The notes beneath the pieces are model-generated. The model searched no databases and was not told the origin of the DNA. It saw only the letters and a program-made list of their open reading frames with translations. Source: Cristatella mucedo (Eukaryota; Bryozoa; Phylactolaemata; Cristatellidae). Taken from it: a DNA stretch of 64,000 nt. Positions 9,023 to 47,090 of this stretch are shown piece by piece. The position numbers and the translations under genes were made by a program. Where the stretch lies: NCBI GenBank assembly GCA_009760855.2, contig WPIO01000236.1, positions 62,001-126,000 on the forward strand, read 5' to 3'. Position 1 is the stretch's first letter. Each line of letters begins with the position of its first letter.

Positions 9023-11090
9023 TGCTGCACCATGTTTAAAGCATTTCGCACGTAAATAACACGTTTCGCACGAGTTCGCAGCAGATCGCGGAATATGTAG
9101 AAACTTAAATCTGTATGTCGGAGCGTGCGCTGACTGGCAGCAGAGTGCTGCACCATGTTTAAAGCATTTCGCACGTAAAAATCACGTTTCGCACGAGTTC
9201 GCACCAGATCGCGGAATATGTAGAAACTTCAAATCTGCATTTCGGAGCGTGCGCTGACTGGCAGCAGAGTGCTGCACCATGTTTAAAGCATTTCGCACGT
9301 AAATAACACGTTTCGCACAAGTTCGCATCAGATCGCGGAATATGTAGAAACTTCAAATCTGCATTTCGGAGCGTGCGCTGACTGGCAGCAGAGTGCTGCA
9401 CCATGTTTAAAGCATTTCGCACGTAAATAACACGTTTCGCACGAGTTCAGAGCAGATCGCGGAATATGTAGAAACTTTAAATCTGCATGTCGGAGCGTGC
9501 GCTGACTGGCAGCAGAGTGCTGCACCATGTTTAAAGCATTTCGCACGTAAATAACACGTTTCGCACGAGTTCGCAGCAGATCGCGGAATATGTAGAAACT
9601 TTCAAATCTGCATGTCGGAGCGTGTGCTGCTGACTGGCAGCAGAGTGCTGCACCATGTTTAAAGCATTTCGCACGTAAATAACACGTTTCGCACGAGTTC
9701 GCAGCAGATCGCGGAATATGTAGAAACTTCAAATCTGCATGTCGGAGCGTGTGCTGACTGCAGCAGAGTGCTGCACCATGTTTAAAGCATTTCGCACGTA
9801 AATAACACGTTTCGCACGAGTTCGCAGCAGATCGCGGAATATGTAGAAACTTCAAATCTGCATGTCGGAGCGTGCGCTGACTGGCAGCAGAGTGCTGCAC
9901 CATGTTTAAAGCATTTCGCACGTAAATAACACGTTTCGCACGAGTTCGCAGCAGATCGCGGAATATGTAGAAACTTCAAATCTGCATGTCGGAGCGTGCG
10001 CTGACTGGCAGCAGAGTGCTGCACCATGTTTAAAGCATTTCGCACGTAAATAACACGTTTCGCACAAGTTCGCATCAGATCGCGGAATATGTAGAAACTT
10101 CAAATCTGCATTTCGGAGCGTGCGCTGACTGGCAGCAGAGTGCTGCACCATGTTTAAAGCATTTCGCACGTAAATAACACGTTTCGCACAAGTTCGCACC
10201 AGATCGCGGAATATGTAGAAACTTTAAATCTGCATGTCGGAGCGTGCGCTGACTGGCAGCAGAGTGCTGCACCATGTTTAAAGCATTTCGCACGTAAATA
10301 ACACGTTTCGCACGAGTTCGGAGCAGATCGCGGATTATCTAGAAACTTCAAATCTGCATGTCGGAGCGTGTGCTGACTGGCAGCAGAGTGCTGCACCATG
10401 TTTAAAGCATTTCGCACGTAAATAACACGTTTCGCACGAGTTTCGCAGCAGATCGCGGAATATGTAGAAACTTCAAATCTGCATGTCGTAGCGTGCGCTT
10501 GCTGGCAGCAGAGTGCTGCACATGTTTAAAGCATTTCGCACGTAAACAACACGTTTCGCACAAGTTCGCAGCAGATCGCGGAATATGTAGAACTTTAAAT
10601 CTGCATGTTTCGGAGCGTGCGCTGACTGGCAGCAGAGTGCTGCACCATGTTTAAAGCATTTCGCACGTAAATAACACGTTTCGCACGAGTTCAGAGCAGA
10701 TCGCGGAATATGTAGAAACTTAAATCTGCATTTCGGAGCGTGGGCTGACTGGCAGCAGAGTGCTGCACCATGTTTAAAGCATTTCGCACGTAAATAACAC
10801 GTTTCGCACAAGTTCGCATCAGATCGCGGAATATGTAGAAACTTCAAATCTGCATTTCGGAGCGTGTGCTGACTGGCAGCAGAGTGCTGCACCATGTTTA
10901 AAGCATTTCGCACGTAAATAACACGTTTCGCACAAGTTCGCACCAGATCGCGGAATATGTAGAAACTTTAAATCTGCATGTCGGAGCGTGCACTGACTGG
11001 CAGCAGAGTGCTGCACCATGTTTAAAGCATTTCGCACGTAAATAACACGTTTCGCAAGAGTTCGCAGCAGATCGCGGAATGTCTAGAAAC

Positions 11091-11091
11091 N
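11091..11091. other. Single N with truncated unit (likely assembly join)
   Basis: The left side stops at GTCTAGAAAC (consensus 85) and the right side resumes at AAAGCATTTCGC (consensus 19 of another unit). About 57 bp of a unit is therefore missing across one N, so the true length here is unknown. Confidence 0.85.
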
Positions 11092-11321: not shown

Positions 11322-11816
11322 GAGTGCTGCACCATGTTAAAAGCATTTCGCACGTAAATAACACGTTTCGCACTAGTTCGCACCAGATCGCGGAATATGT
11401 AGAAACTATAAATCTGCATTTCGGAGCGTGCGCTGACTGACAGCAGAGTGCTGCACCATGTTTAAAGCATTTCGCACGTAAATAACACGTTTCGCACAAG
11501 TTCGCAGCAGATCGCGGAATATGTAGAAACTTTAAATCTGCATGTCGGAGCGTGCGCTGACTGGCAGCAGAGTGCTGCACCATGTTTAAAGCATTTCGCA
11601 CGTAAATAACACGTTTCGCAAGAGTTCGGAGCAGATCGCGGAATATCTAGAAACTTCCAATCTGCCTGTCGGAGCGTGTGCTGACTTGCAGCAGAGTGCT
11701 GCACCATGTTTTAACATTTCGCACGTAAATAACACGTTTCGCACGAGTTCGCACCAGATCGCGGAATATGTAGAAACTTCAAATCTGCATGTCGGAGCGT
11801 GCGCTGACATGCAGCA
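11322..11816 (+). repeat. A-B-C-D variant cassette, diverged copy
   Basis: Unit A ends with GACTGACAGC and has CTATAAATC. Unit B has CTTTAAATC. Unit C has CGCAAGAG, GGAGCAG, ATCTAGAAACTTCC and CTGCCTGTCGG. The fourth unit keeps the GACATGC end of D but not TTTAATGC or GGAAGATG. The next cassette begins 743 bp further on, close to six monomers. Confidence 0.7.
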
Positions 11817-12064
11817 GAGTGCTGCACCATGTTTAAAGCATTTCGCACGTAAATAACACGTTTCGCACGAGTTCGCACCAGATCGCGGAATATGTAGAAA
11901 CTTCAAATCTGCATGTCGGAGCGTGCGCTGACTGGCAGCAGAGTGCTGCACCATGTTTAAAGCATTTCGCACGTAAATAACACGTTTCGCACAAGTTCGC
12001 ATCAGATCGCGGAATATGTAGAAACTTCAAATCTGCATTTCGGAGCGTGCGCTGACTGGCAGCA

Positions 12065-12560
12065 GAGTGCTGCACCATGTTTAAAGCATTTCGCACGTAA
12101 ATAACACGTTTCGCACAAGTTCGCATCAGATCGCGGAATATGTAGAAACTTATAATCTGCATTTCGGAGCGTGCGCTGACATGCAGCAGAGTGCTGCACC
12201 ATGTTTAAAGCATTTCGCACGTAAATAACACGTTTCGCACAAGTTCGCACCAGATCGCGGAATATGTAGAAACTTTAAATCTGCATGTCGGAGCGTGCAC
12301 TGACTGGCAGCAGAGTGCTGCACCATGTTTAAAGCATTTCGCACGTAAATAACACGTTTCGCAAGAGTTCGGAGCAGATCGCGGAATGTCTAGAAACTTC
12401 CAATCTGCCTGTCGGAGCGTGTTCTGACTTGCAGCAGAGTGCTGCACCATGTTTAATGTATTTCGCACGTAAAAAACACGTTTCGCACGAGTTTGCAGCA
12501 GATCGCGGAATATGTAGAAACTTCAAATCTGCATGTCGGAGCGTGCCCTGACATGCAGCA
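12065..12560 (+). repeat. A-B-C-D variant cassette
   Basis: Exactly 496 bp. A has CTTATAATC with GCATTTCGG; B has CACCAG, CTTTAAATC and GTGCACTG; C has CGCAAGAG, GGAGCAG, TGTCTAGAAACTTCC, CTGCCTGTCGG and GTTCTGACTTGC; D has TTTAATG, GAGTTTGCAGC and CCCTGACATGC. D has GGAATATG instead of GGAAGATG and TTTAATGTATTT. Confidence 0.85.
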
Positions 12561-13180
12561 GAGTGCTGCACCATGTTTAAAGCATTTCGCACGTAAATAA
12601 CACGTTTCGCACGAGTTCGCATCAGATCGCGGAATATGTAGAAACTTCAAATCTGCATTTCGGAGCGTGCGCTGACTGGCAGCAGAGTGCTGCACCATGT
12701 TTAAAGCATTTCGCACGTAAATAACACGTTTCGCACGAGTTCGCAGCAGATCGCGGAATATGTAGAAACTTCAAATCTGCATGTCGGAGCGTGGGCTGAC
12801 TGGCAGCAGAGTGCTGCACCATGTTTAAAGCATTTCGCACGTAAATAACACGTTTCGCACGAGTTCGCAGCAGATCGCGGAATATGTAGAAACTTCAAAT
12901 CTGCATTTCGGAGCGTGCGCTGACTGGCAGCAGAGTGCTGCACCATGTTTAAAGCATTTCGCACGTAAATAACACGTTTCGCACGAGTTCGCAGCAGATC
13001 GCGGAATATGTAGAAACTTCAAATCTGCATGTCGGAGCGTGCGCTGACTGGCAGCAGAGTGCTGCACCATGTTTAAAGCATTTCGCACGTAAATAACACG
13101 TTTCGCACAAGTTCGCAGCAGATCGCGGAATATGTAGAAACTTCAAATCTGCATTTCGGAGCGTGGGCTGACTGGCAGCA

Positions 13181-13678
13181 GAGTGCTGCACCATGTTTAA
13201 AGCATTTCGCACGTAAATAACACGTTTCGCACAAGTTCGCATCAGATCGCGGAATATGTAGAAACTTATAATCTGCATTTCGGAGCGTGCTGCTGACTGA
13301 CAGCAGAGTGCTGCACCATGTTTAAAGCATTTCGCACGTAAATAACACGTTTCGCACAAGTTCGCACCAGATCGCGGAATATGTAGAAACTTTAAATCTG
13401 CATGTCGGAGCGTGCACTGACTGGCAGCAGAGTGCTGCACCATGTTTAAAGCATTTCGCACGTAAATAACACGTTTCGCAAGAGTTCGGAGCAGATCGCG
13501 GAATGTCTAGAAACTTCCAAATCTGCCTGTCGGAGCGTGTTCTGACTTGCAGCAGAGTGCTGCACCATGTTTAATGCATTTCGCACGTAAATAACACGTT
13601 TCGCACGAGTTTGCAGCAGATCGCGGAAGATGTAGAAACTTCAAATCTGCATGTCGGAGCGTGCCCTGACATGCAGCA
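13181..13678 (+). repeat. A-B-C-D variant cassette
   Basis: 498 bp, the two extra bases lying in GTGCTGCTGACTG of unit A and CTTCCAAATC of unit C. All four units carry their diagnostic changes, including GGAAGATG in D. The following unit is the E variant (CTTTAAATC with GTGTGCTG), as after several other cassettes. Confidence 0.87.
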
Positions 13679-15546
13679 GAGTGCTGCACCATGTTTAAAG
13701 CATTTCGCACGTAAATAACACGTTTCGCACGAGTTCGCAGCAGATCGCGGAATATGTAGAAACTTTAAATCTGCATGTCGGAGCGTGTGCTGACTGGCAG
13801 CAGAGTGCTGCACCATGTTTAAAGCATTTCGCACGTAAATAACACGTTTCGCACGAGTTCGCAGCAGATCGCGGAATATGTAGAAACTTCAAATCTGCAT
13901 TTCGGAGCGTGAGCTGACTGGCAGCAGAGTGCTGCACCATGTTTAAAGCATTTCGCACGTAAATAATAACACGTTTCGCACGAGTTCGCAGCAGATCGCG
14001 GAATATGTAGAAACTTCAAATCTGCATGTCGGAGCGTGAGCTGACTGGCAGCAGAGTGCTGCACCATGTTTAAAGCATTTTTCACGTAAATAACACGTTT
14101 CGCACGAGAGTTCGCACCAGATCGCGGAATATGTAGAAACTTCAAATCTGCATGTCGGAGCGCGTGCTGACTGGCAGCAGAGTGCTGCACCATGTTTAAA
14201 GCATTTCGCACGTAAATAACACGTTTCGCACAAGTTCGCATCAGATCGCGGAATATGTAGAAACTTCAAATCTGCATTTCGGAGCGTGCGCTGACTGGCA
14301 GCAGAGTGCTGCACCATGTTTAAAGCATTTCGCACGTAAATAACACGTTTCGCACAAGTTCGCACCAGATCGCGGAATATGTAGAAACTTTAAATCTGCA
14401 TGTCGGAGCGTGTGCTGACTGGCAGCAGAGTGCTGCACCATGTTTAAAGCATTTCGCACGTAAATAACACGTTTCGCAAGAGTTCGCAGCAGATCGCGGA
14501 ATATGTAGAAACTTCAAATCTGCATGTCGGAGCGTGTGCTGACTTGCAGCAGAGTGCTGCACCATGTTTAAAGCATTTCGCACGTAAATAACACGTTTCG
14601 CACAAGTTCGCAGCAGATCGCGGAATATGTAGAAACTTCAAATCTGCATTTCGGAGCGTGCGCTGACTGGCAGCAGAGTGCTGCACCATATTTAAAGCAT
14701 TTCGCACGTAAATAACAATTTTCGCACAAGTTCGCACCAGATCGCGGAATATGTAGAAACTTTAAATCTGCATGTCGGAGCGTGCGCTGACTGGCAGCAG
14801 AGTGCTGCACCATGTTTAAAGCATTTCGCACGTAAATAACACGTTTCGCAAGAGTTCGGAGCAGATCGCGGAATATCTAGAAACTTTCAAATCTGCATGT
14901 TGGAGTGTGTGCTGACTTGCAGCAGAGTGCTGCACCATGTTTAAAGCATTTCGCACGTAAATAACACGTTTCGCACAAGTTCGCATCAGATCGCGGAATA
15001 TGTAGAAACTTCAAATCTGCATTTCGGAGCGTGCGCTGACTTGCAGCAGAGTGCTGCACCATGTTTAAAGCATTTCGCACGTAAATAACACGTTTCGCAC
15101 GAGTTCGGAGCAGATCGCGGAATATCTAGAAACTTCAAATCTGCATGTCGGAGCGTGGGCTGACTGGCAGCAGAGTGCTGCACCATGTTTAAAGCATTTC
15201 GCACGTAAATAACACGTTTCGCACGAGTTCGCAGCAGATCGCGGATATGTAGAAACTTCAAATCTGCATGTCGGAGCGTGCGCTGACTGGCAGCAGAGTG
15301 CTGCACCATGTTTAAAGCATTTCGCACGTAAATAACACGTTTCGCACGAGTTCGGAGCAGATCGCGGAATATCTAGAAACTTCAAATCTGCATGTCGGAG
15401 CGTGGGCTGACTGGCAGCAGAGTGCTGCACCATGTTTAAAGCATTTCGCACGTAAACAACACGTGTCGCACAAGTTCGCATCAGATCGCGGAATATGTAG
15501 AAACTTCAAATCTGCATTTCGGGAGTGTGCTGGCTGACTGGCAGCA

Positions 15547-16042
15547 GAGTGCTGCACCATGTTTAAAGCATTTCGCACGTAAATAACACGTTTCGCACAA
15601 GTTCGCATCAGATCGCGGAATATGTAGAAACGTATATTCTGCATTTCGGAGCGTGCGCTGACTGGCAGCAGAGTGCTGCACCATGTTTAAAGCATTTCGC
15701 ACGTAAATAACACGTTTCGCACAAGTTCGCACCAGATCGCGGAATATGTAGAAACTTTAAATCTGCATGTCGGAGCGTGCACTGACTGGCAGCAGAGTGC
15801 TGCACCATGTTTAAAGCATTTCGCACGTAAATAACACGTTTCGCAAGAGTTCGGAGCAGATCGCGGAATGTCTAGAAACTTCCAATCTGCCTGTCGGAGC
15901 GTGTTCTGACTTGCAGCAGAGTGCTGCACCATGTTTAATGCATTTCGCACGTAAATAACACGTTTCGCACGAGTTTGCAGCAGATCGCGGAAGATGTAGA
16001 AACTTCAAATCTGCATGTCGGAGCGTGCCCTGACATGCAGCA
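15547..16042 (+). repeat. A-B-C-D variant cassette, reference copy
   Basis: Exactly 496 bp and complete. A: CATCAG, ACGTATATTCTGC, GCATTTCGG. B: CACCAG, CTTTAAATC, GTGCACTG. C: CGCAAGAG, GGAGCAG, TGTCTAGAAACTTCC, CTGCCTGTCGG, GTTCTGACTTGC. D: TTTAATGC, GAGTTTGCAGC, GGAAGATG, CCCTGACATGC. It is preceded by Y (GGAGCAG, ATCTAG, GTGGGCTG) and Z (CATCAG, GCATTTCGG-type) units and followed by an E unit. Confidence 0.9.
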
Positions 16043-17902
16043 GAGTGCTGCACCATGTTTAAAGCATTTCGCAACGTAAATAACACGTTTCGCACGAGTT
16101 CGCAGCAGATCGCGGAATATGTAGAAACTTTAAATCTGCATGTCGGAGCGTGTGCTGACTGGCAGCAGAGTGCTGCACCATGTTTAAAGCATTTCGCACG
16201 TAAATAACACGTTTCGCACGAGTTCGCAGCAGATCGCGGAATATGTAGAAACTTCAAATCTGCATTTCGGAGCGTGCGCTGACTGGCAGCAGAGTGCTGC
16301 ACCATGTTTAAAGCATTTCGCACGTAAATAACACGTTTCGCACGAGTTCGCAGCAGATCGCGGAATATGTAGAAACTTCAAATCTGCATGTCGGAGCGTG
16401 CGCTGACTGGCAGCAGAGTGCTGCACCATGTTTAAAGCATTTCGCACGTAAATAACACGTTTCGCACGAGTTCGCAGCAGATCGCGGAATATGTAGAAAC
16501 TTTAAATCTGCATGTCGGAGCGTGCGCTGACTGGCAGCAGAGTGCTGCACCATGTTTAAAGCATTTCGCACGTAAATAACACGTTTCGCACAAGTTCGCA
16601 GCAGATCGCGGAATATGTAGAAACTTCAAATCTGCATTTCGGAGCGTGCTGCTGACTGGCAGCAGAGTGCTGCACCATGTTTAAAGCATTTCGCACGTAA
16701 ATAACACGTTTCGCACAAGTTCGCAGCAGATCGCGGAATATGTAGAAACTTCAAATCTGCATTTCGGAGCGTGCGCTGACTGGCAGCAGAGTGCTGCACC
16801 ATGTTTAAAGCATTTCGCACGTAAATAACACGTTTCGCACAAGTTCGCAGCAGATCGCGGAATATGTAGAAACTTCAAATCTGCATGTCGGAGCGTGCGC
16901 TGACTGCAGCAGAGTGCTGCACCATGTTTAAAGCATTTCGCACGTAAATAACACGTTTCGCACAAGTTCGCATCAGATCGCGGAATATGTAGAAACTTCA
17001 AATCTGCATTTCGGAGCGTGCGCTGACTGGCAGCAGAGTGCTGCACCATGTTTAAAGCATTTCGCACGTAAATAACACGTTTCGCACAAGTTCGCAGCAG
17101 ATCGCGGAATATGTAGAAACTTTAAATCTGCATGTCGGAGCGTGGGCTGACTGGCAGCAGAGTGCTGCACCATGTTTAAATTTTTCGCACGTAAATAACA
17201 CGTTTCGCAAGAGTTCGGCAGCAGATCGCGGAATATGTAGAAACTTCAAATCTGCATGTCGGAGCGTGTGCTGACTTGCAGCAGAGTGCTGCACCATGTT
17301 TAAAGCATTTCGCACGTAAATAACACGTTTCGCACAAGTTCGCAGCAGATCGCGGAATATGTAGAAACTTCAAATCTGCATGTCGGAGCGTGCGCTGACT
17401 GGCAGCAGAGTGCTGCACCATGTTTAAAGCATTTCGCACGTAAATAACACGTTTCGCACGAGTTCGCAGCAGATCGCGGAATATGTAGAAACTTCAAATC
17501 TGCATGTCGGAGCGTGCGCTGACTGGCAGCAGAGTGCTGCACCATGTTTAAAGCATTTCGCACGTAAATAACACGTTTCGCACGAATTCGCAGCAGATCG
17601 CGGAATATGTAGAAACTTCAAATCTGCATGTCGGAGCGTGGCTGACTGGCAGCAGAGTGCTGCACCATGTTTAAAGCATTTCGCACGTAAATAACACGTT
17701 TCGCACGAGTTCGCAGCAGATCGCGGAATATGTAGAAACTTCAAATCTGCATGTCGGAGCGTGGGCTGACTGGCAGCAGAGTGCTGCACCATGTTTAAAG
17801 CATTTCGCACGTAAATAACACGTTTCGCACAAGTTCGCATCAGATCGCGGAATATGTAGAAACTTCAAATCTGCATTTCGGAGCGTGGGCTGACTGGCAG
17901 CA

Positions 17903-18274
17903 GAGTGCTGCACCATGTTTAAAGCATTTCGCACGTAAATAACACGTTTCGCACAAGTTCGCATCAGATCGCGGAATATGTAGAAACGTATAATCTGCAT
18001 TTCGGAGCGTGCGCTGACTGGCAGCAGAGTGCTGCACCATGTTTAAAGCATTTCGCACGTAAATAACACGTTTCGCACAAGTTCGCACCAGATCGCGGAA
18101 TATGTAGAAACTTTAAATCTGCATGTCGGAGCGTGCACTGACTGGCAGCAGAGTGCTGCACCATGTTTAAAGCATTTCGCACGTAAATAACACGTTTCGC
18201 ACGAGTTCGCAGCAGATCGCGGAATATGTAGAAACTTCCAATCTGCCTGTCGGAGCGTGTGCTGACTTGCAGCA
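17903..18274 (+). repeat. A-B-C partial cassette
   Basis: Exactly 372 bp. A has ACGTATAATCTGC; B is typical. C keeps CTTCCAATCTGCCTGTCGG and GACTTGC but has GAGTTCGCAGCAG and ATGTAG, as if its left half had been replaced by a common unit. No D unit follows, so the cassette is cut after C. Confidence 0.8.
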
Positions 18275-20272
18275 GAGTGCTGCACCATGTTTAAAGCATT
18301 TCGCACGTAAATAACACGTTTCGCACGAGTTCGCACCAGATCGCGGAATATGTAGAAATTTCAAATCTGCATGTCGGAGCGTGCGCTGACTGCCAGCAGA
18401 GTTCTGCACCATGTTTAAAGCATTTCGCACGTAAATAACACGTTTCGCACGAGTTCGCACCAGATCGCGGAATATGTAGAAACTTCAAATCTGCATGTCG
18501 GAGCGTGTGCTGACTGGCAGCAGAGTGCTGCACCATGTTTAAAGCATTTTGCACGTAAATAACACGTTTCGCACGAGTTCGGCAGCAGATCGCGGAATAT
18601 GTAGAAACTTCAAATCTGCATGTCGGAGCGTGCGCTGACTGGCAGCAGAGTGCTGCACCATGTTTAAAGCATTTCGCACGTAAATAACACGTTTCGCACG
18701 AGTTCGCAGCAGATCGCGGAATATGTAGAAACTTCAAATCTGCATTTCGGAGCGTGCCTGCTGACTGGCAGCAGAGTGCTGCACCATGTTTAAAGCATTT
18801 CGCACGTAAATAACACGTTTCGCACGAGTTCGCAGCAGATCGCGGAATATGTAGAAACTTCAAATCTGCATGTCGGAGCGTGTGCTGACTGGCAGCAGAG
18901 TGCTGCACCATGTTTAAAGCATTTCGCACGTAAATAACACGTTTCGCACGAGTTCGCACCAGATCGCGGAATATGTAGAAACTTCAAATCTGCATGTCGG
19001 AGCGTGCTGCTGACTGGCAGCAGAGTGCTGCACCATGTTTAAAGCATTTCGCACGTAAATAACACGTTTCGCACAAGTTCGCATCAGATCGCGGAATATG
19101 TAGAAACTTCAAATCTGCATTTCGGAGCGTGGGCTGACTGGCAGCAGAGTGCTGCACCATGTTTAAAGCATTTCGCACGTAAATAACACGTTTCGCACAA
19201 GTTCGCATCAGATCGCGGAATATGTAGAAACTTTAAATCTGCATGTCGGAGCGTGCTCTGACTGGCAGCAGAGTGCTGCACCATGTTTAAAGCATTTCGC
19301 ACGTAAATAACACGTTTCGCAAGAGTTCACAGCAGATCGCGGAATATCTAGAAACTTCAAATCTGCATGTCGGAGCGTGAGCTGACTGCAGCAGAGTGCT
19401 GCACCATGTTTAAAGCATTTCGCACGTAAATAACACGTTTCGCACGAGTTTGCAGCAGATCGCGGAATATGTAGAAACTTTAAATCTGCATGTCGGAGCG
19501 TGCCCTGACATGCAGCAGAGTGCTGCACCATGTTTAAAGCATTTCGCACGTAAATAAACACGTTTCGCACGAGTTCGCAGCAGATCGCGGAATATGTAGA
19601 AACTTTAAATCTGCATGTCGGAGCGTGCGCTGACTGGCAGCAGAGTGCTGCACCATGTTTAAAGCATTTCGCACGTAAATAACACGTTTCGCACAAGTTC
19701 GCATCAGATCGCGGAATATGTAGAAACTTCAAATCTGCATTTCGGAGCGTGGGCTGACTGGCAGCAGAGTGCTGCACCATGTTTAAAGCATTTCGCACGT
19801 AAATAACACGTTTCGCACAAGTTCGCATCAGATCGCGGAATATGTAGAAACTTTAAATCTGCATTTCGGAGAGTGAGCTGACTGGCAGCAGAGTGCTGCA
19901 CCATGTTTAAAGCATTTCGCACGTAAATAACACGTTTCGCACGAGTTCGGAGCAGATCGCGGAATATGTAGAAACTTCAAATCTGCATGTCGGAGCGTGT
20001 GCTGACTGGCAGCAGAGTGCTGCACCATGTTTAAAGCATTTCGCACGTAAATAACACGTTTCGCACGAGTTTGCAGCAGATCGCGGAAGATGTAGAAACT
20101 TCAAATCTGCATGTCGGAGCGTGCCCTGACTGGCAGCAGAGTGCTGCACCAGTGCTGCACCATTTAAAGCATTTCGCGCACGTAATAACACGTTTCGCAC
20201 GAGTTCGCACCAGATCGCGGAATATGTAGAAACTTTAAATCTGCATGTCGGAGCGTGCGCTGACTGGCAGCA

Positions 20273-20768
20273 GAGTGCTGCACCATGTTTAAAGCATTTC
20301 GCACGTAAATAACACGTTTCGCACAAGTTCGCATCAGATCGCGGAATATGTAGAAACGTATATTCTGCATTTCGGAGCGTGCGCTGACTGACAGCAGAGT
20401 GCTGCACCATGTTTAAAGCATTTCGCACGTAAATAACACGTTTCGCACAAGTTCGCACCAGATCGCGGAATATGTAGAAACTTTAAATCTGCATGTCGGA
20501 GCGTGTCCTGACTGGCAGCAGAGTGCTGCACCATGTTTAAAGCATTTCGCACGTAAATAACACGTTTCGCAAGAGTTCGGAGCAGATCGCGGAATGTCTA
20601 GAAACTTCCAATCTGCCTGTCGGAGCGTGTTCTAACTTGCAGCAGAGTGCTGCACCATGTTTAATGTATTTCGCACGTAAATAACACGTTTCGCACGAGT
20701 TTGCAGCAGATCGCGGAAGATGTAGAAACTTCAAATCTGCATGTCGGAGCGTGCCCTGACATGCAGCA
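20273..20768 (+). repeat. A-B-C-D variant cassette
   Basis: Exactly 496 bp with the ACGTATATTCTGC change in A, and typical C and D. B differs by GTGTCCTG in place of GTGCACTG, and C by GTTCTAACTTGC. Immediately upstream, near 20150, is a short GTGCTGCACC duplication and a unit with a damaged start. Confidence 0.87.
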
Positions 20769-21016
20769 GAGTGCTGCACCATGTTTAAAGCATTTCGCAC
20801 GTAAATAACACGTTTCGCACAAGTTCGCATCAGATCGCGGAATATGTAGAAACTTCAAATCTGCATTTCGGAGCGTGTGCTGACTGGCAGCAGAGTGCTG
20901 CACCATGTTTAAAGCATTTCGCACGTAAATAACACGTTTCGCACAAGTTCGCATCAGATCGCGGAATATGTAGAAACTTCAAATCTGCATTTCGGAGCGT
21001 GCGCTGACTGGCAGCA

Positions 21017-21388
21017 GAGTGCTGCACCATGTTTAAAGCATTTCGCACGTAAATAACACGTTTCGCACAAGTTCGCATCAGATGGCGGATTATGTAGAAA
21101 CGTAGAATCTGCATTTCGGAGCGTGTGCTGACTGACAGCAGAGTGCTGCACCATGTTTAAAGCATTTCGCATGTAAATAACACGTTTCGCACAAGTTCGC
21201 AGCAGATCGCGGAATATGTAGAAACTTTAAATCTGCATGTCGGAGCGTGCACTGACTGGCAGCAGAGTGCTGCACCATGTTTAAAGCATTTCGCACGTAA
21301 ATAACACGTTTCGCAAGAGTTCGGAGCAGATCGCGGAATGTCTAGAAACTTCCAATCTGCCTGTCGGAGCGTGTGCTGACTTGCAGCA
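21017..21388 (+). repeat. A-B-C partial cassette with rare A subtype
   Basis: Exactly 372 bp. A is the rare subtype with GATGGCGGATTATG and ACGTAGAATCTGC, seen again only near 26500. B has CAGCAG instead of CACCAG. C is typical but ends GTGTGCTGACTTGC. The next unit keeps TTTAATGC and GAGTTTGCAGC of D but not its GGAAGATG or CCCTGACATGC. Confidence 0.8.
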
Positions 21389-21769
21389 GAGTGCTGCACC
21401 ATGTTTAATGCATTTCGCACGTAAATAACACGTTTCGCACGAGTTTGCAGCAGATCGCGGAATATGTAGAAACTTCAAATCTGCATGTCGGAGCGTGCGC
21501 TGACTGGCAGCAGAGTGCTGCACCATGTTTAAAGCATTTCGCACGTAAATAACACGTGTCGCACAAGTTCGCATCAGATCGCGGAATATGTAGAAACTTC
21601 AAATCTGCATTTCGGAGCGTGCGCTGACTGGCAGCAGAGTGCTGCACCATGTTTAAAGCATTTCGCACGTAAATAACACGTTTCGCACAAGTTCGCACCA
21701 GATCGCGGAATATGTAGAAACTTTAAATCTGCATGTCGGAGCGTGCACTGACTGGCAGCAGAGTGCTGC

Positions 21770-21785
21770 ACCATGCGAGTTTGCA
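21770..21785 (+). repeat. 36-bp deletion junction inside a monomer
   Basis: CACCATG (consensus 9-15) is followed directly by CGAGTTTGCAG (consensus 52 onward), removing 36 bp. The size is confirmed by cassette spacing: 21017 to 22345 is 1,328 bp, exactly 11 x 124 minus 36. It lies in the clean core, so it is probably a real event. Confidence 0.85.
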
Positions 21786-22344
21786 GCAGATCGCGGAATA
21801 TGTAGAAACTTCAAATCTGCATGTCGGAGCGTGTGCTGACTGGCAGCAGAGTGCTGCACCATGTTTAAAGCATTTCGCACGTAAATAACACGTTTCGCAC
21901 GAGTTCGGAGCAGATCGCGGAATATGTAGAAACTTCAAATCTGCATGTCGGAGCGTGGGCTGACTGGCAGCAGAGTGCTGCACCATGTTTAAAGCATTTC
22001 GCACGTAAATAACACGTTTCGCACGAGTTCGGAGCAGATCGCGGAATATGTAGAAACTTCAAATCTGCATGTCGGAGCGTGCTCTGACTGGCAGCAGAGT
22101 GCTGCACCATGTTTAAAGCATTTCGCACGTAAATAACACGTTTCGCACGAGTTCGGAGCAGATCGCGGAATATCTAGAAACTTCAAATCTGCATGTCGGA
22201 GCGTGGGCTGACTGGCAGCAGAGTGCTGCACCATGTTTAAAGCATTTCGCACGTAAATAACACGTTTCGCACAAGTTCGCATCAGATCGCGGAATATGTA
22301 GAAACTTCAAATCTGCATTTCGAAGCGTGGGCTGACTGGCAGCA

Positions 22345-22840
22345 GAGTGCTGCACCATGTTTAAAGCATTTCGCACGTAAATAACACGTTTCGCACAAGT
22401 TCGCATCAGATCGCGGAATATGTAGAAACGTATATTCTGCATTTCGGAGCGTGCGCTGACTGACTGCAGAGTGCTGCACCATGTTTAAAGCATTTCGCAC
22501 GTAAATAACACGTTTCGCACAAGTTCGCACCAGATCGCGGAATATGTAGAAACTTTAAATCTGCATGTCGGAGCGTGCACTGACTGGCAGCAGAGTGCTG
22601 CACCATGTTTAAAGCATTTCGCACGTAAATAACACGTTTCGCAAGAGTTCGGAGCAGATCGCGGAATGTCTAGAAACTTCCAATCTGCCTGTCGGAGCGT
22701 GTTCTGACTTGCAGCAGAGTGCTGCACCATGTTTAATGTATTTCGCACGTAAATAACACGTTTCGCACCAGTTTGCAGCAGATCGCGGAAGATGAAGAAA
22801 CTTCAAATCTGCATGTCGGAGCGTGCCCTGACATGCAGCA
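22345..22840 (+). repeat. A-B-C-D variant cassette
   Basis: Exactly 496 bp. It carries the ACGTATATTCTGC, GTGCACTG, TGTCTAGAAACTTCC and GGAAGATG marks. D has ATGAAG for ATGTAG. It starts 1,328 bp after the cassette at 21017, which equals 11 monomers minus the 36-bp deletion at 21774. Y and Z units precede and an E unit follows. Confidence 0.88.
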
Positions 22841-24329
22841 GAGTGCTGCACCATGTTTAAAGCATTTCGCACGTTAATAACACGTTTGGCACGAGTTCGC
22901 AGCAGATCGCGGAATATGTAGAAACTTTAAATCTGCATGTCGGAGCGTGTGCTGACTGGCAGCAGAGTGCTGCACCATGTTTAAAGCATTTCGCACGTAA
23001 ATAACACGTTTCGCACGAGTTCGCAGCAGATCGCGGAATATGTAGAAACTTCAAATCTGCATGTCGGAGCGTGAGCTGACTGGCAGCAGAGTGCTGCACC
23101 ATGTTTAAAGCATTTCGCACGTAAATAACACGTTTCGCACAAGTTCGCACCAGATCGCGGAATATGTAGAAACTTTAAATCTGCATGTCGGAGCGTGCAC
23201 TGACTGGCAGCAGAGTGCTGCACCATGTTTAAAGCATTTCGCACGTAAATAACACGTTTCGCACGAGTTCGCAGCAGATCGCGGAATATGTAGAAACTTT
23301 AAATCTGCATGTGGGAGCGTGAGCTGACTGGCAGCAGAGTGCTGCACCATGTTTAAAGCATTTCGCACGTAAATAACACGTTTCGCACAAGTTCGCATCA
23401 GATCGCGGAATATGTAGAAACTTCAAATCTGCATGTCGGAGCGTGGCCTGACTGGCAGCAGAGTGCTGCACCATGTTTAAAGCATTTCGCACGTAAATAA
23501 CACGTTTCGCACAAGTTCAGAGCAGATCGCGGAATATGTAGAAACTTCAAATCTGCATTTCGGAGCGTGCGCTGACTGGCAGCAGAGTGCTGCACCATGT
23601 TTAAAGCATTTCGCACGTAAATAACACGTTTCGCACAAGTTCGCATCAGATCGCGGAATATGTAGAAACTTCAAATCTGCATTTCGGAGCGTGCGCTGAC
23701 TGGCAGCAGAGTGCTGCACCATGTTTAAAGCATTTCGCACGTAAATAACACGTTTCGCACAGAGTTCGCATCAGATCGCGGAATATGTAGAAACTTCAAA
23801 TCTGCATGTCGGAGCGTGTGCTGACTTGCAGCAGAGTGCTGCACCATGTTTAAAGCATTTCGCACGTAAATAACACGTTTCGCACGAGTTCGCACCAGAT
23901 CGCGGAATATGTAGAAACTTCAAATCTGCATGTCGGAGCGTGGGCTGACTGGCAGCAGAGTGCTGCACCATGTTTAAAGCATTTCGCACGTAAATAACAC
24001 GTTTCGCACGAGTTCAGAGCAGATCGCGGAATATCTAGAAACTTCAAATCTGCATGTCGGAGCGTGCGCTGACTGGCAGCAGAGTGCTGCACCATGTTTA
24101 AAGCATTTCGCACGTAAATAACACGTTTCGCACGAGTTCGGAGCAGATCGCGGAATATGTAGAAACTTCAAATCTGCATGTCGGAGCGTGGCCTGACTGG
24201 CAGCAGAGTGCTGCACCATGTTTAAAGCATTTCGCACGTAAATAACACGTTTCGCACAAGTTCGCAGCAGATCGCGGAATATGTAGAAACTTCAAATCTG
24301 CATTTCGGAGCGTGGGCTGACTGGCAGCA

Positions 24330-24825
24330 GAGTGCTGCACCATGTTTAAAGCATTTCGCACGTAAATAACACGTTTCGCACAAGTTCGCATCAGATCGCG
24401 GAATATGTAGAAACGTATATTCTGCATTTCGGAGCGTGCGCTGACTGGCAGCAGAGTGCTGCACCATGTTTAAAGCATTTCGCACGTAAATAACACGTTT
24501 CGCACAAGTTCGCACCAGATCGCGGAATATGTAGAAACTTTAAATCTGCATGTCGGAGCGTGCACTGACTGGCAGCAGAGTGCTGCACCATGTTTAAAGC
24601 ATTTCGCACGTAAATAACACGTTTCGCAAGAGTTCGGAGCAGATCGCGGAATGTCTAGAAACTTCCAATCTGCCTGTCGGAGCGTGTTCTGACTTGCAGC
24701 AGAGTGCTGCACCATGTTTAATGCATTTCGCACGTAAATAACACGTTTCGCACGAGTTTGCAGCAGATCGCGGAAGATGTAGAAACTTCAAATCTGCATG
24801 TCGGAGCGTGCCCTGACATGCAGCA
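24330..24825 (+). repeat. A-B-C-D variant cassette
   Basis: Exactly 496 bp, complete and nearly identical to the copy at 15547. The following units are E (CTTTAAATC, GTGTGCTG) and a GCATTTCGG / GTGAGCTG unit; the same two follow the copy at 13181, which extends the shared order to six units. Confidence 0.9.
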
Positions 24826-25569
24826 GAGTGCTGCACCATGTTTAAAGCATTTCGCACGTAAATAACACGTTTCGCACGAGTTCGCAGCAGATCGCGGAAT
24901 ATGTAGAAACTTTAAATCTGCATGTCGGAGCGTGTGCTGACTGGCAGCAGAGTGCTGCACCATGTTTAAAGCATTTCGCACGTAAATAACACGTTTCGCA
25001 CGAGTTCGCAGCAGATCGCGGAATATGTAGAAACTTCAAATCTGCATTTCGGAGCGTGAGCTGACTGGCAGCAGAGTGCTGCACCATGTTTAAAGCATTT
25101 CGCACGTAAATAACACGTTTCGCACGAGTTCGCAGCAGATCGCGGAATATGTAGAAACTTCAAATCTGCATGTCGGAGCGTGTGCTGACTGGCAGCAGAG
25201 TGCTGCACCATGTTTAAAGCATTTCGCACGTAAATAACACGTTTCGCACGAGTTCGCAGCAGATCGCGGAATATGTAGAAACTTTAAATCTGCATGTCGG
25301 AGCGTGTGCTGACTGGCAGCAGAGTGCTGCACCATGTTTAAAGCATTTCGCACGTAAATAACACGTTTCGCACAAGTTCGCATCAGATCGCGGAATATGT
25401 AGAAACTTCAAATCTGCATGTCGGAGCGTGAGCTGACTGGCAGCAGAGTGCTGCACCATGTTTAAAGCATTTCGCACGTAAATAACACGTTTCGCACAAG
25501 TTCGCATCAGATCGCGGAATATGTAGAAACTTCAAATCTGCATTTCGGAGCGTGCGCTGACTGGCAGCA

Positions 25570-25941
25570 GAGTGCTGCACCATGTTTAAAGCATTTCGCA
25601 CGTAAATAACACGTTTCGCACAAGTTCGCATCAGATCGCGGAATATGTAGAAACTTATAATCTGCATTTCGGAGCGTGCGCTGACTGACAGCAGAGTGCT
25701 GCACCATGTTTAAAGCATTTCGCACGTAAATAACACGTTTCGCACAAGTTCGCACCAGATCGCGGAATATGTAGAAACTTTAAATCTGCATGTCGGAGCG
25801 TGCACTGACTGGCAGCAGAGTGCTGCACCATGTTTAAAGCATTTCGCACGTAAATAACACGTTTCGCAAGAGTTCGGAGCAGATCGCGGAATGTCTAGAA
25901 ACTTCCAATCTGCCTGTCGGAGCGTGTTCTGACTTGCAGCA
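25570..25941 (+). repeat. A-B-C partial cassette with D head only
   Basis: Exactly 372 bp, with A of the CTTATAATC subtype, typical B and C. The next unit begins TTTAATGC like D, then continues as a CACAAG / CAGCAG unit, so D is cut inside the unit by an exchange between TTTAATGCATTTCGC and GCACAAG. Confidence 0.82.
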
Positions 25942-26560
25942 GAGTGCTGCACCATGTTTAATGCATTTCGCACGTAAATAACACGTTTCGCACAAGTTCG
26001 CAGCAGATCGCGGAATATGTAGAAACTTCAAATCTGCATTTCGGAGCGTGAGCTGACTTGCAGCAGAGTGCTGCACCATGTTTAAAGCATTTCGCACGTA
26101 AATAACACGTTTCGCACGAGTTCGGAGCAGATCGCGGAATATCTAGAAACTTCAAATCTGCATGTCGGAGCGTGGGCTGACTGGCAGCAGAGTGCTGCAC
26201 CATGTTTAAAGCATTTCGCACGTAAATAACACGTTTCGCACGAGTTCGCAGCAGATCGCGGAATATGTAGAAACTTCAAATCTGCATGTCGGAGCGTGCG
26301 CTGACTGGCAGCAGAGTGCTGCACCATGTTTAAAGCATTTCGCACGTAAATAACACGTTTCGCACGAGTTCGCAGCAGATCGCGGAATATGTAGAAACTT
26401 CAAATCTGCATGTCGGAGCGTGGGCTGACTGGCAGCAGAGTGCTGCACCATGTTTAAAGCATTTCGCACGTAAATAACACGTTCGCACAAGTTCGCATCA
26501 GATGGCGGATTATGTAGAAACGTAGAATCTGCATTTCGGAGCGTGTGCTGACTGCCAGCA

Positions 26561-27056
26561 GAGTGCTGCACCATGTTTAAAGCATTTCGCACGTAAATAA
26601 CACGTTTCGCACAAGTTCGCATCAGATCGCGGAATATGTAGAAACGTATATTCTGCATTTCGGAGCGTGCGCTGACTGACAGCAGAGTGCTGCACCATGT
26701 TTAAAGCATTTCGCACGTAAATAACACGTTTCGCACAAGTTCGCACCAGATCGCGGAATATGTAGAAACTTTAAATCTGCATGTCGGAGCGTGCACTGAC
26801 TGGCAGCAGAGTGCTGCACCATGTTTAAAGCATTTCGCACGTAAATAACACGTTTCGCAAGAGTTCGGAGCAGATCGCGGAATGTCTAGAAACTTCCAAT
26901 CTGCCTGTCGGAGCGTGTGCTGACTTGCAGCAGAGTGCTGCACCATGTTTAATGCATTTCGCACGTAAATAACACGTTTCGCACGAGTTTGCAGCAGATC
27001 GCGGAAGATGTAGAAACTTCAAATCTGCATGTCGGAGCGTGCCCTGACATGCAGCA
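26561..27056 (+). repeat. A-B-C-D variant cassette
   Basis: Exactly 496 bp with ACGTATATTCTGC in A and GGAAGATG in D. It is directly preceded by the rare GATGGCGGATTATG subtype (about 26500). It is the last complete cassette before about 5.5 kb of array with common units. Confidence 0.88.
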
Positions 27057-45780: not shown

Positions 45781-47090
45781 AGCCATAATCGCACGTAAAA
45801 ATACACCTTTCTCGCATTATAAGTTCGCACCTAGATCGCGTGAATTATGTAGAAACTTTGTCAAATCTGCATGTCGGGAGCGTGGAGCTGCTCTGGCAGA
45901 ATGACGCGCTGCACCTCTGTTTATAAGCATTTAGNTGGCAGCAAAGTGCTGCACCATGTTTAAAGCATTTCGCACGTAATAACCCGTGTTGGCACGAGTT
46001 CGCGCAGATCGCGAAAATATTTCAGAAACGTCAAAATCTGCATGTCTGAAGCTGAGTGGCTGGCAAACAAATGTTGCTGGACACCATTGTTTAAAAGCAT
46101 TTATCGTCACGTTAATAACAGATTTAGCACGAGTTCGCAGCAAATATGCTGGAATATTGAGAAAACGTCAAACTCTGCATTTTGAAGCGTGCCACTGAAT
46201 GGCAACAGTTTTTTATTTGTTGGGTTATCCGGTTAAAGCATGCGAAGAGTAAATAAAACTTGTCGCACCACGCTCTCCACCGATACCAGGATCAGCACAG
46301 CATATGTAGAAATACGTTAAATCTGAATTTTCGAGGCCCGTGGGCAGTACATGGAGCAGATGTGCTGCCCCATGTTTCAAGCATCTCGCACGTAATAACG
46401 GGGAGTGTTTTTTTTTTTCCGGCGTTTTGGCGTTTCGCCGAGTCTCACCAGATCGCTGGTTGGGTAAATTAAGTAAACTTGAAATCTGCATTTTCGTGGA
46501 GCGTGCGGTGACTGGAAGACAGAGCACATGTGCTATGTGGGGGGCATTTCGCAACCTCATTGTACAATAAAACACTTTTCCATCGCCCCATCAGAGTTCG
46601 CTTTACCATATGCGCTAACTATTCTAGGAAATTTTCTCAAACTGCATTGCTGAGCGTGACGCTCCCTGACACTGGCAGTCACGAGCTGTGCACCATGGTT
46701 AGCATTTTCGCCGTAATAACCCGTGTCCACAGTTCGCATCAGATCGCGACACTGTAGAACTCAATCTGCTTTCGAACCCGTCGCGGGGACGTGACGTGGC
46801 CACGCACGAGTCTGCACAGGTTCTAACGATTTCGCCGTATAATTAAACGTTCCGACAAGCTTCGCACGATCGCGAATATGTAAAAACATAATAGTCGTCA
46901 TTTCAGGAGGCGTCTGCTGACTGAACCACAGTGCTGCACATGTATAAAGCGATTTCCACGTAATAACACGTTCGCACAAGTGTGTCACCAGATCGCGGAT
47001 ATGTATAAACTTCAACTGTCATTTCGAGCGTGGGCTGACTGGCAGCAGAGTACTCTGGTGCCCTTGTCGTTAAAGCATTTGCACGAAAAC
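45781..47090. repeat. Heavily scrambled satellite tract containing an N
   Basis: This is among the worst preserved satellite of the window. Units can be followed through GCTGCACC, TTTCGC, CAGATCGC and CTGCAT remnants only. A single N lies at 45935 and a T11 run at 46408-46418. Near 46200-46250 the sequence is hard to align (TTTTTTATTTGTTGGG), but it resumes as TTAAAGCATGCGAAG. After about 46730 the units become deletion-rich instead of insertion-rich, with landmark spacing close to 122-124 bp. The change back to clean units near 47100 is abrupt. Confidence 0.8.
45935..45935. other. Single N inside scrambled tract (likely assembly join)
   Basis: The left side is at GCATTTAG (consensus about 28) and the right side at TGGCAGCAAAG (consensus about 117). 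The phase jump of roughly 90 bp across one base indicates a join and not one unreadable base. Confidence 0.8.

Follow-up and report, generated by a model that had tools for sequence, protein, structure and literature searches.

Irregular higher-order organisation in a 124-bp animal satellite array, with blocks probably moved by out-of-register exchange

Introduction

In the CEN178 centromere arrays of Arabidopsis, as scored by TRASH, higher-order repeats (HORs) are pairs of blocks that have an equal number of monomers and are similar position by position, and neither monomer classes nor a fixed period enter the definition (PMC10199239). Human and ape alpha satellite forms homogeneous inner arrays, with layers that diverge increasingly towards the edge and monomeric repeats alongside (PMC11062924). 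Here we describe a 124-bp satellite of Cristatella mucedo on a contig designated C151 and, within it, an interval in which four monomer variants, A, B, C and D, recur in the same order as a cassette. The stretch analysed, hereafter the window, comprises 64,000 nucleotides, and the interval occupies its positions 11322–27056; coordinates refer to the window unless the contig is named. The higher-order organisation is irregular and of a kind already recognised in satellites.

Two described sequences share the unit length. Lusy1 of Luzula sylvatica has a 124-bp unit in CENH3-associated arrays that average 189 kb (PMC11538461). A 124-bp sequence of Tribolium madens is described as a chimeric transition element (PMC13081366).

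Results

Contig C151 (228,595 bp) is one 124-bp tandem repeat throughout, on a single strand and head to tail. Wrap-around alignment cut it into 1,828 monomers, 1,414 of which have at most two indels, and as a long head-to-tail array of a non-coding unit it qualifies as satellite DNA. Because 124 is not a multiple of 3, no reading frame recurs from unit to unit, and we see no coding role for the array. It is homogeneous, at 5.4–6.0 differences per 124 (about 4.5%), and similarity is nearly flat with distance: two monomers show on average 5.4 differences at lag 1 (lags being counted in monomers), 5.7 at lags 161–320 and 6.0 beyond 1,200.

All ten cassettes that the original prediction had placed in the interval are present at those places (Table 1). 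The seven A-B-C-D copies differ pairwise by 0–7 substitutions and 0–4 gap positions, the copies at 15547 and 24330 being identical over the full 496 bp. Random in-phase pairs of four monomers from the first 34 kb of the window, a sample in which the cassette pairs were left, differ at 22.9 positions on average, and 0.77% of them show 7 or fewer differences. The order of the variants is far from random along the whole contig, and the idea passes the test set for it beforehand, under which adjacency at chance level would have overturned it. Among the 1,828 monomers, the steps AB, BC and CD occur 28, 27 and 23 times (4.1, 2.9 and 0.95 expected) and ABCD 10 times (0.003 expected), while CB, DC, AC and BD are absent and BA and DA occur twice each. 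Strict class labels miss the A monomers of the copies at 12065, 13181, 21017 and 25570, and these contig-wide counts are therefore low. The classes had been derived from a single reader-chosen copy, that at 24330, and a recount was made outside the interval to avoid circularity. In the 1,701 monomers that lie there, AB, BC and CD were found 22, 18 and 16 times (3.5, 2.2 and 0.67 expected), ABC 11 times and ABCD 5 times (0.07 and 0.003 expected); the maxima over 2,000 shuffles were 10, 9, 5, 2 and 1, respectively. The cassette is array-wide: the labels ABC or ABCD fall at 16 places of C151 between about 50 and 215 kb, with the largest group in the interval. BCD or ABCD was also present in all five loci examined from contigs C619, C620 and C304, which were retrieved with the cassette as query and show its presence, not its frequency.

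A class-free check on the 1,325 monomers that carry no more than one indel agrees with this ordered linkage. The variants of neighbouring monomers are correlated, with a mean r2 of 0.021 at lag 1, and the linkage fades over a few monomers, to 0.008, 0.004 and 0.003 at lags 2–4 and 0.0015–0.0024 at lags 8–19 (0.0009–0.0010 expected). This decay extends that seen within the monomer, where r2 is 0.12 within 5 bp and 0.04 at 31–60 bp. All four combinations of alleles occur in 128 of the 153 pairs formed by 18 common variant sites, and the variants have therefore been strongly reshuffled.

One argument for unequal exchange does not survive. That the start-to-start distances of the cassettes are whole numbers of monomers carries no information, as it follows automatically for any positions that share a phase in a 124-bp array poor in indels; the single step given as 11 monomers minus 36 bp was traced to an 88-bp monomer between 21755 and 21843. 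Shared order beyond seven units, which had been proposed as a way to define the block, does exist. A scan for near-identical runs over all diagonals of C151 found seven runs scoring at least 12, a score reached in none of 20 shuffles. The two best, of 10 monomers (lag 71) and of 8 monomers (lag 90), fall within the interval, and gapped alignment at the monomer level did not lengthen the blocks in the first 34 kb of the window.

A second scan looked for a block of k monomers (k from 3 to 150) followed by its own copy, with 200 shuffles as the null. It was run on two segments of C151, 4–96.5 kb and 143.5–228.6 kb, because an unpolished stretch dominated the null of a contig-wide scan; indel-rich monomers were left unscored, and overlapping hits are not independent. 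In the first segment, blocks with k = 16 (two places), 6 (two places), 8, 19 and 89 beat the best of the 200 shuffles (−12.48), and those with k = 18, 9, 17, 22, 8, 33, 6, 38 and 11 reached the 5% level only. In the second, k = 12, 4, 44, 17 and 10 beat all shuffles (−13.15), and k = 5 (three places) and 56 reached only the 5% level. Within the interval, all 200 shuffles were beaten by k = 19, 16 and 6 (the last at 20029–20782), and k = 18, 9 and 8 attained the 5% level alone. The signal at k = 89 is diffuse, its block beginning immediately to the left of the N at 11091 and averaging 5.6 differences. Tandem duplications of several lengths are thus present, and the favoured lag shifts along the contig: the best lag is 89 in the first 34 kb of the window, 38 and then 19 in the interval, 7 at contig 8–24 kb, 16 and 6 at 28–62 kb, 17 at 144–184 kb and 10 at 184–228 kb.

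These lags bear on a regular HOR with a fixed block, as found in many human alpha-satellite arrays. Ordered variants and high identity between copies would be expected of such a repeat, and within the interval lags 38 and 19 rank highest; however, the lag scans of the six C151 ranges revealed no one dominating block length, the best lag varying from range to range. The effect is also small (5.2–5.5 differences against 6.2 in the interval), and there are just 10 strict ABCD copies among the 1,828 monomers. We regard a regular HOR as extremely unlikely. Under the block-pair definition of TRASH, the array does contain HORs beyond chance, at cuts of 1 and 2 differences. Under a TRASH-like rule (at least 3 monomers with at most 1 difference each; five shuffles), contig 28–96.5 kb has 143 block pairs, the longest of 8 monomers, against 9–30 pairs and a longest of 3–4 in shuffles, and contig 143.5–228.6 kb has 127, the longest of 5, against 11–52 and 3–5. 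When the cut is relaxed to 5 differences, these two segments have no more block pairs than the shuffles, but their longest runs are still longer (33 against 14–16, and 29 against 16–22).

Table 1. Features of the window.
Feature	Position	Strand	Remark
Satellite array, 124-bp unit	1–64000	+	about 509 monomers, head to tail; C151 62001–126000
A-B-C-D cassette	12065–12560	+	496 bp
A-B-C-D cassette	13181–13678	+	498 bp
A-B-C-D cassette	15547–16042	+	identical to copy at 24330
A-B-C copy	17903–18274	+	loose; 6–10 substitutions from the seven cassettes
A-B-C-D cassette	20273–20768	+	
A-B-C copy	21017–21388	+	loose; 7–11 substitutions from the seven cassettes
A-B-C-D cassette	22345–22840	+	
A-B-C-D cassette	24330–24825	+	identical to copy at 15547
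A-B-C copy	25570–25941	+	0 substitutions from A-B-C of 12065 and 13181; 2 gap positions
A-B-C-D cassette	26561–27056	+	
88-bp monomer	21755–21842	+	36 bp missing
10-monomer block	15561–16802	+	matches 24344–25583; 7 differences in total; lag 71
10-monomer block	24344–25583	+	matches 15561–16802
8-monomer block	13071–14067	+	matches 24220–25211; 5 differences in total; lag 90
8-monomer block	24220–25211	+	matches 13071–14067
19-monomer block, then diverged copy	13320–18040	+	block 13320–15684, copy 15685–18040; mean 2.5 differences per monomer, local background 5.6
16-monomer block, then copy	21772–25707	+	block 21772–23722; mean 4.2 differences, truncated monomer included
9-monomer block, then copy	11831–14067	+	5% level, not all shuffles
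Single N	11091	.	at phase break just left of the interval; probable assembly join

The cassette pairs show where a single tandem duplication is insufficient. At least 4 consecutive close monomers are shared by 23 of the 351 pairs, and the run is shorter than the lag in all 23, a count that overstates the matter in that single diverged monomers end runs, which is part of the cause at short lags. A fairer comparison is that of the rest of the block, viewed for 17 of the 23 pairs with the best span chosen and hence biased towards similarity. This remainder shows clear similarity at lags 12, 16, 16 and 19 (2.9–4.5 differences excluding the cassette, against a background of 5.6–9.7). It is moderately nearer than background, by 1.0–2.0, at lags 18, 38, 44 and 89, and slightly nearer, by 0.6–1.0, at lags 17, 33, 51 and 57. 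At lags 66, 71, 90, 100 and 108, it lies within 0.3 of background, and one simple tandem duplication does not explain these pairs. Since the two longest matches stand 71 and 90 monomers apart in surroundings that do not match, layered exchange or short-tract conversion must be added; they are either older duplications cut by later ones or short tracts copied over a distance.

The second of these possibilities can be taken further, with short-tract copying over long distances (by gene conversion, by break-induced replication with template switching or by re-insertion of excised circles) having placed the cassettes and unequal crossing-over being secondary. The matches at lags 71 and 90 are indeed flanked by sequence at background level (5.8 and 6.4 differences against 6.1 and 6.2), block pairs that match under the strict rule are widely separated (median lags of 101 and 220 monomers in the two segments), and the 128 site pairs with all four combinations would fit frequent conversion. 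Against it, blocks of 12, 16 and 19 monomers match across the whole lag, and old tandem duplications cut by later events would look alike. We consider such an origin of the cassettes unlikely, if not lightly dismissed. That homogenisation as a whole proceeds mainly by short tracts of 4–10 monomers copied over 70–100 monomers, with the cassettes spreading like small passengers, seems to us more doubtful still.

A neutral model with in-register duplication and deletion of blocks was simulated. The simulations were coarse (one seed per setting for mean blocks of 1.5 or 5 monomers and two for the other settings), compared only the summary statistics named here and for most settings were not adjusted to match the diversity in the data. 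Mean blocks of 1.5 or 5 monomers were rejected, as neighbours became far too alike (ratio of lag-1 to far differences of 0.09–0.10 and 0.46–0.62, against 0.93 and 1.00 in the data). A mean block of 20 reproduced the flat profile of difference over distance and, for one seed of the two, came close to the decay of linkage. At lags 1, 2, 3, 5 and 10, r2 was 0.028, 0.010, 0.006, 0.003 and 0.001 in one seed and 0.030, 0.016, 0.011, 0.014 and 0.012 in the other; the corresponding data are 0.021, 0.011, 0.010, 0.002 and 0.001 for the first segment and 0.015, 0.004, 0.002, 0.002 and 0.001 for the second. The mean-20 runs quoted are the ones whose diversity came closest to that observed (6.9 and 8.7 differences per pair, against 5.7 and 5.3 in the data).

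In other respects the simulations weigh against block exchange as a complete account. The mean-20 runs give 118 and 123 diagonals scoring at least 12, against 4 and 1 in the data, and their top runs span 20–42 monomers, against 10 (score 18) and 16 (score 12); mean blocks of 8, 12 and 40 likewise yield long runs. When short conversions make up 80–95% of events, the run counts come nearer the data (3–14 long-lag diagonals), as short-tract copying would have it, but the linkage of neighbours falls to 0.002–0.004, against 0.015–0.021 observed. With 50% conversions, the nearest compromise, linkage is 0.013–0.015 and 33 and 46 diagonals remain. No setting tried fits all statistics. The order of the array, moreover, depends on one assembly, which is partly unpolished.

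Misjoined or mis-polished long reads could in principle have made the repeated cassettes. Three single N letters in the window (11091, 45935 and 62829) each stand at a break of the 124-bp phase, unlike three further N near contig position 207.7 kb, and are probable assembly joins. From about 36 kb of the window, two-kb bins hold 2.7–16.5 inserted bases per monomer, with insertions exceeding deletions in 12 of 14 bins, and most bins from there to about 144 kb of the contig contain several inserted bases per monomer, up to 16.5 per 124. This stretch looks like unpolished long-read sequence, and its variation is not to be taken as biology. Insertions are also raised in the bins at 4–6 and 32–34 kb, most of the left half of the window being otherwise low. 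The interval, however, is clean, with 0.0–0.6 inserted bases per monomer, the cassette copies carry their own substitutions and small gaps, and the cassette recurs in the five loci on the three other contigs. An artefact is very unlikely on these grounds. The satellite consensus has no match in two short stretches (46400–46636 and L016:4605–4959), both of them within the indel-rich region.

An exact 24-mer of the unit occurs 6,876 times (4,546 forward, 2,330 reverse) in the genome assembly searched (572,011,866 bases in 688 contigs). The satellite was not found in bacterial and archaeal genomes or in viral contigs, searched with one exact pattern each. A diverged form of it occupies contig C59 from about 720 kb to the end at 881 kb, where all 11 samples were satellite; the samples at 600 and 680 kb were not. 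Ten of the 11 differ by 18–20% pairwise, mostly with few indels, and the indel-rich last one by 23%, and lags 1–3 show no clear preference. The consensus of 106 C59 monomers departs from that of C151 at 9 of 124 positions, its monomers lying on average 13.8 substitutions from their own consensus. The family therefore has a homogeneous array and an old diverged layer on a contig with other DNA, resembling in this the arrangement described in primates (PMC11062924).

The consensus monomer contains a perfect short inverted repeat, GCAGCA-GAG-TGCTGC, at positions 105–119 (for example, window 11000–11014). In the diverged layer, consensus positions 104–118 are less variable than the remainder (0.071 against 0.124). 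The predicted DNA secondary structure of one monomer is no better than that of shuffles (z −0.6), and no Rfam family, such as the self-cleaving RNAs of satellites, matched window 11322–14500 at an E value of 1 or better. The CENP-B box (NTTCGNNNNANNCGGGN) was not found in the consensus, the best site of which has 2 mismatches.

A short array of 3.3 monomers stands alone on the minus strand at C28:101572–101978, inside one copy of a dispersed element (about L030:1341–2147, with the array at L030:1572–1978), and resembles the C151 consensus at about 98%. At least 39 other places resemble the left part of this element and at least 39 the right part, and three other copies examined have no satellite. 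By eye, the array takes the place of about 80 bp of element sequence, and the ends of the element read as the inverted repeats CAGGCCT and AGGCCTG; it looks like a short transposon with terminal inverted repeats (TIRs). Oyster Helentron elements reportedly hold satellite-like arrays inside. The present element is like them in carrying one short array of the C151 satellite within a dispersed element; it is unlike them in that only one satellite-bearing copy was seen, the three others had none and it looks TIR-type.

Identity with Lusy1 was rejected: its published 36-nt probe scored 20 and 18 on the two strands, against 20 at the 90th percentile of 1,000 shuffles. The mitochondrial contig (C688, 21,008 bp) carries cox3, atp6, cox1 and nad3 in this order on one strand, according to translations inspected by eye; no tRNA was detected in the 4.3 kb covered when ARAGORN was run with the bacterial code. 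In its cox1, AGA and AGG encode serine, TGA encodes tryptophan and AAA stands where lysine is usual, a code that, judged by the known genetic codes and conserved positions, presumably places the contig in an animal group. The code being of animal type, the genome is not that of Luzula. Neither a mollusc haemocyanin domain nor an arthropod cuticle domain gave a hit in it, but as control genomes gave none either, these negatives carry no weight as to absence.

Discussion

The irregular pattern of the cassettes is likely to reflect out-of-register exchange in a non-coding animal satellite array. Of the earlier proposal, unequal exchange of blocks larger than one unit and of no fixed length, the part that stands is the one carried by the blocks of 19, 16 and 6 monomers followed by their own copies and by a lag that varies with range. 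Its argument from spacing is empty, the cassette is not confined to 11.3–27 kb, and the longest matches call for an additional process. In the mechanism that we propose, 124-bp units would be copied and lost by out-of-register exchange inside the array, with misaligned sister chromatids or homologues duplicating or deleting blocks that range from about 4 to 20 monomers and may reach about 90. The older duplications would then be fragmented by subsequent exchanges and by short gene conversions. The A-B-C-D cassette would be a run of four unusually distinct monomers, probably assembled once and then carried along in many events; its distinctive units would make it visible, and runs of near-consensus monomers would conceal the same history. 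The simulations are perhaps best matched by block exchange with some conversion, and by an array perhaps past its most active phase.

The comparison with CEN178 is one of organisation: CEN178 is a 178-bp plant repeat in megabase arrays at a known centromere, whereas the C151 unit has 124 bp and fills a 228-kb contig of an animal genome. As in alpha satellite, a homogeneous array (about 4.5% on C151) is accompanied by a separate, diverged one (18–20% pairwise on C59) that adjoins non-satellite DNA. Unlike alpha satellite, C151 shows no fixed HOR period, and the likeness drawn is one of organisation. One might guess at a pericentromeric or centromeric location for the array.

The principle at work, with unequal exchange, conversion and a homogeneous array beside a diverged layer, is already established. 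What the present array offers is a well-resolved stretch of animal satellite in which the sizes of exchange blocks can be read directly, together with a diverged layer of the same family alongside other DNA, of use in cataloguing how satellites evolve outside primates and plants.

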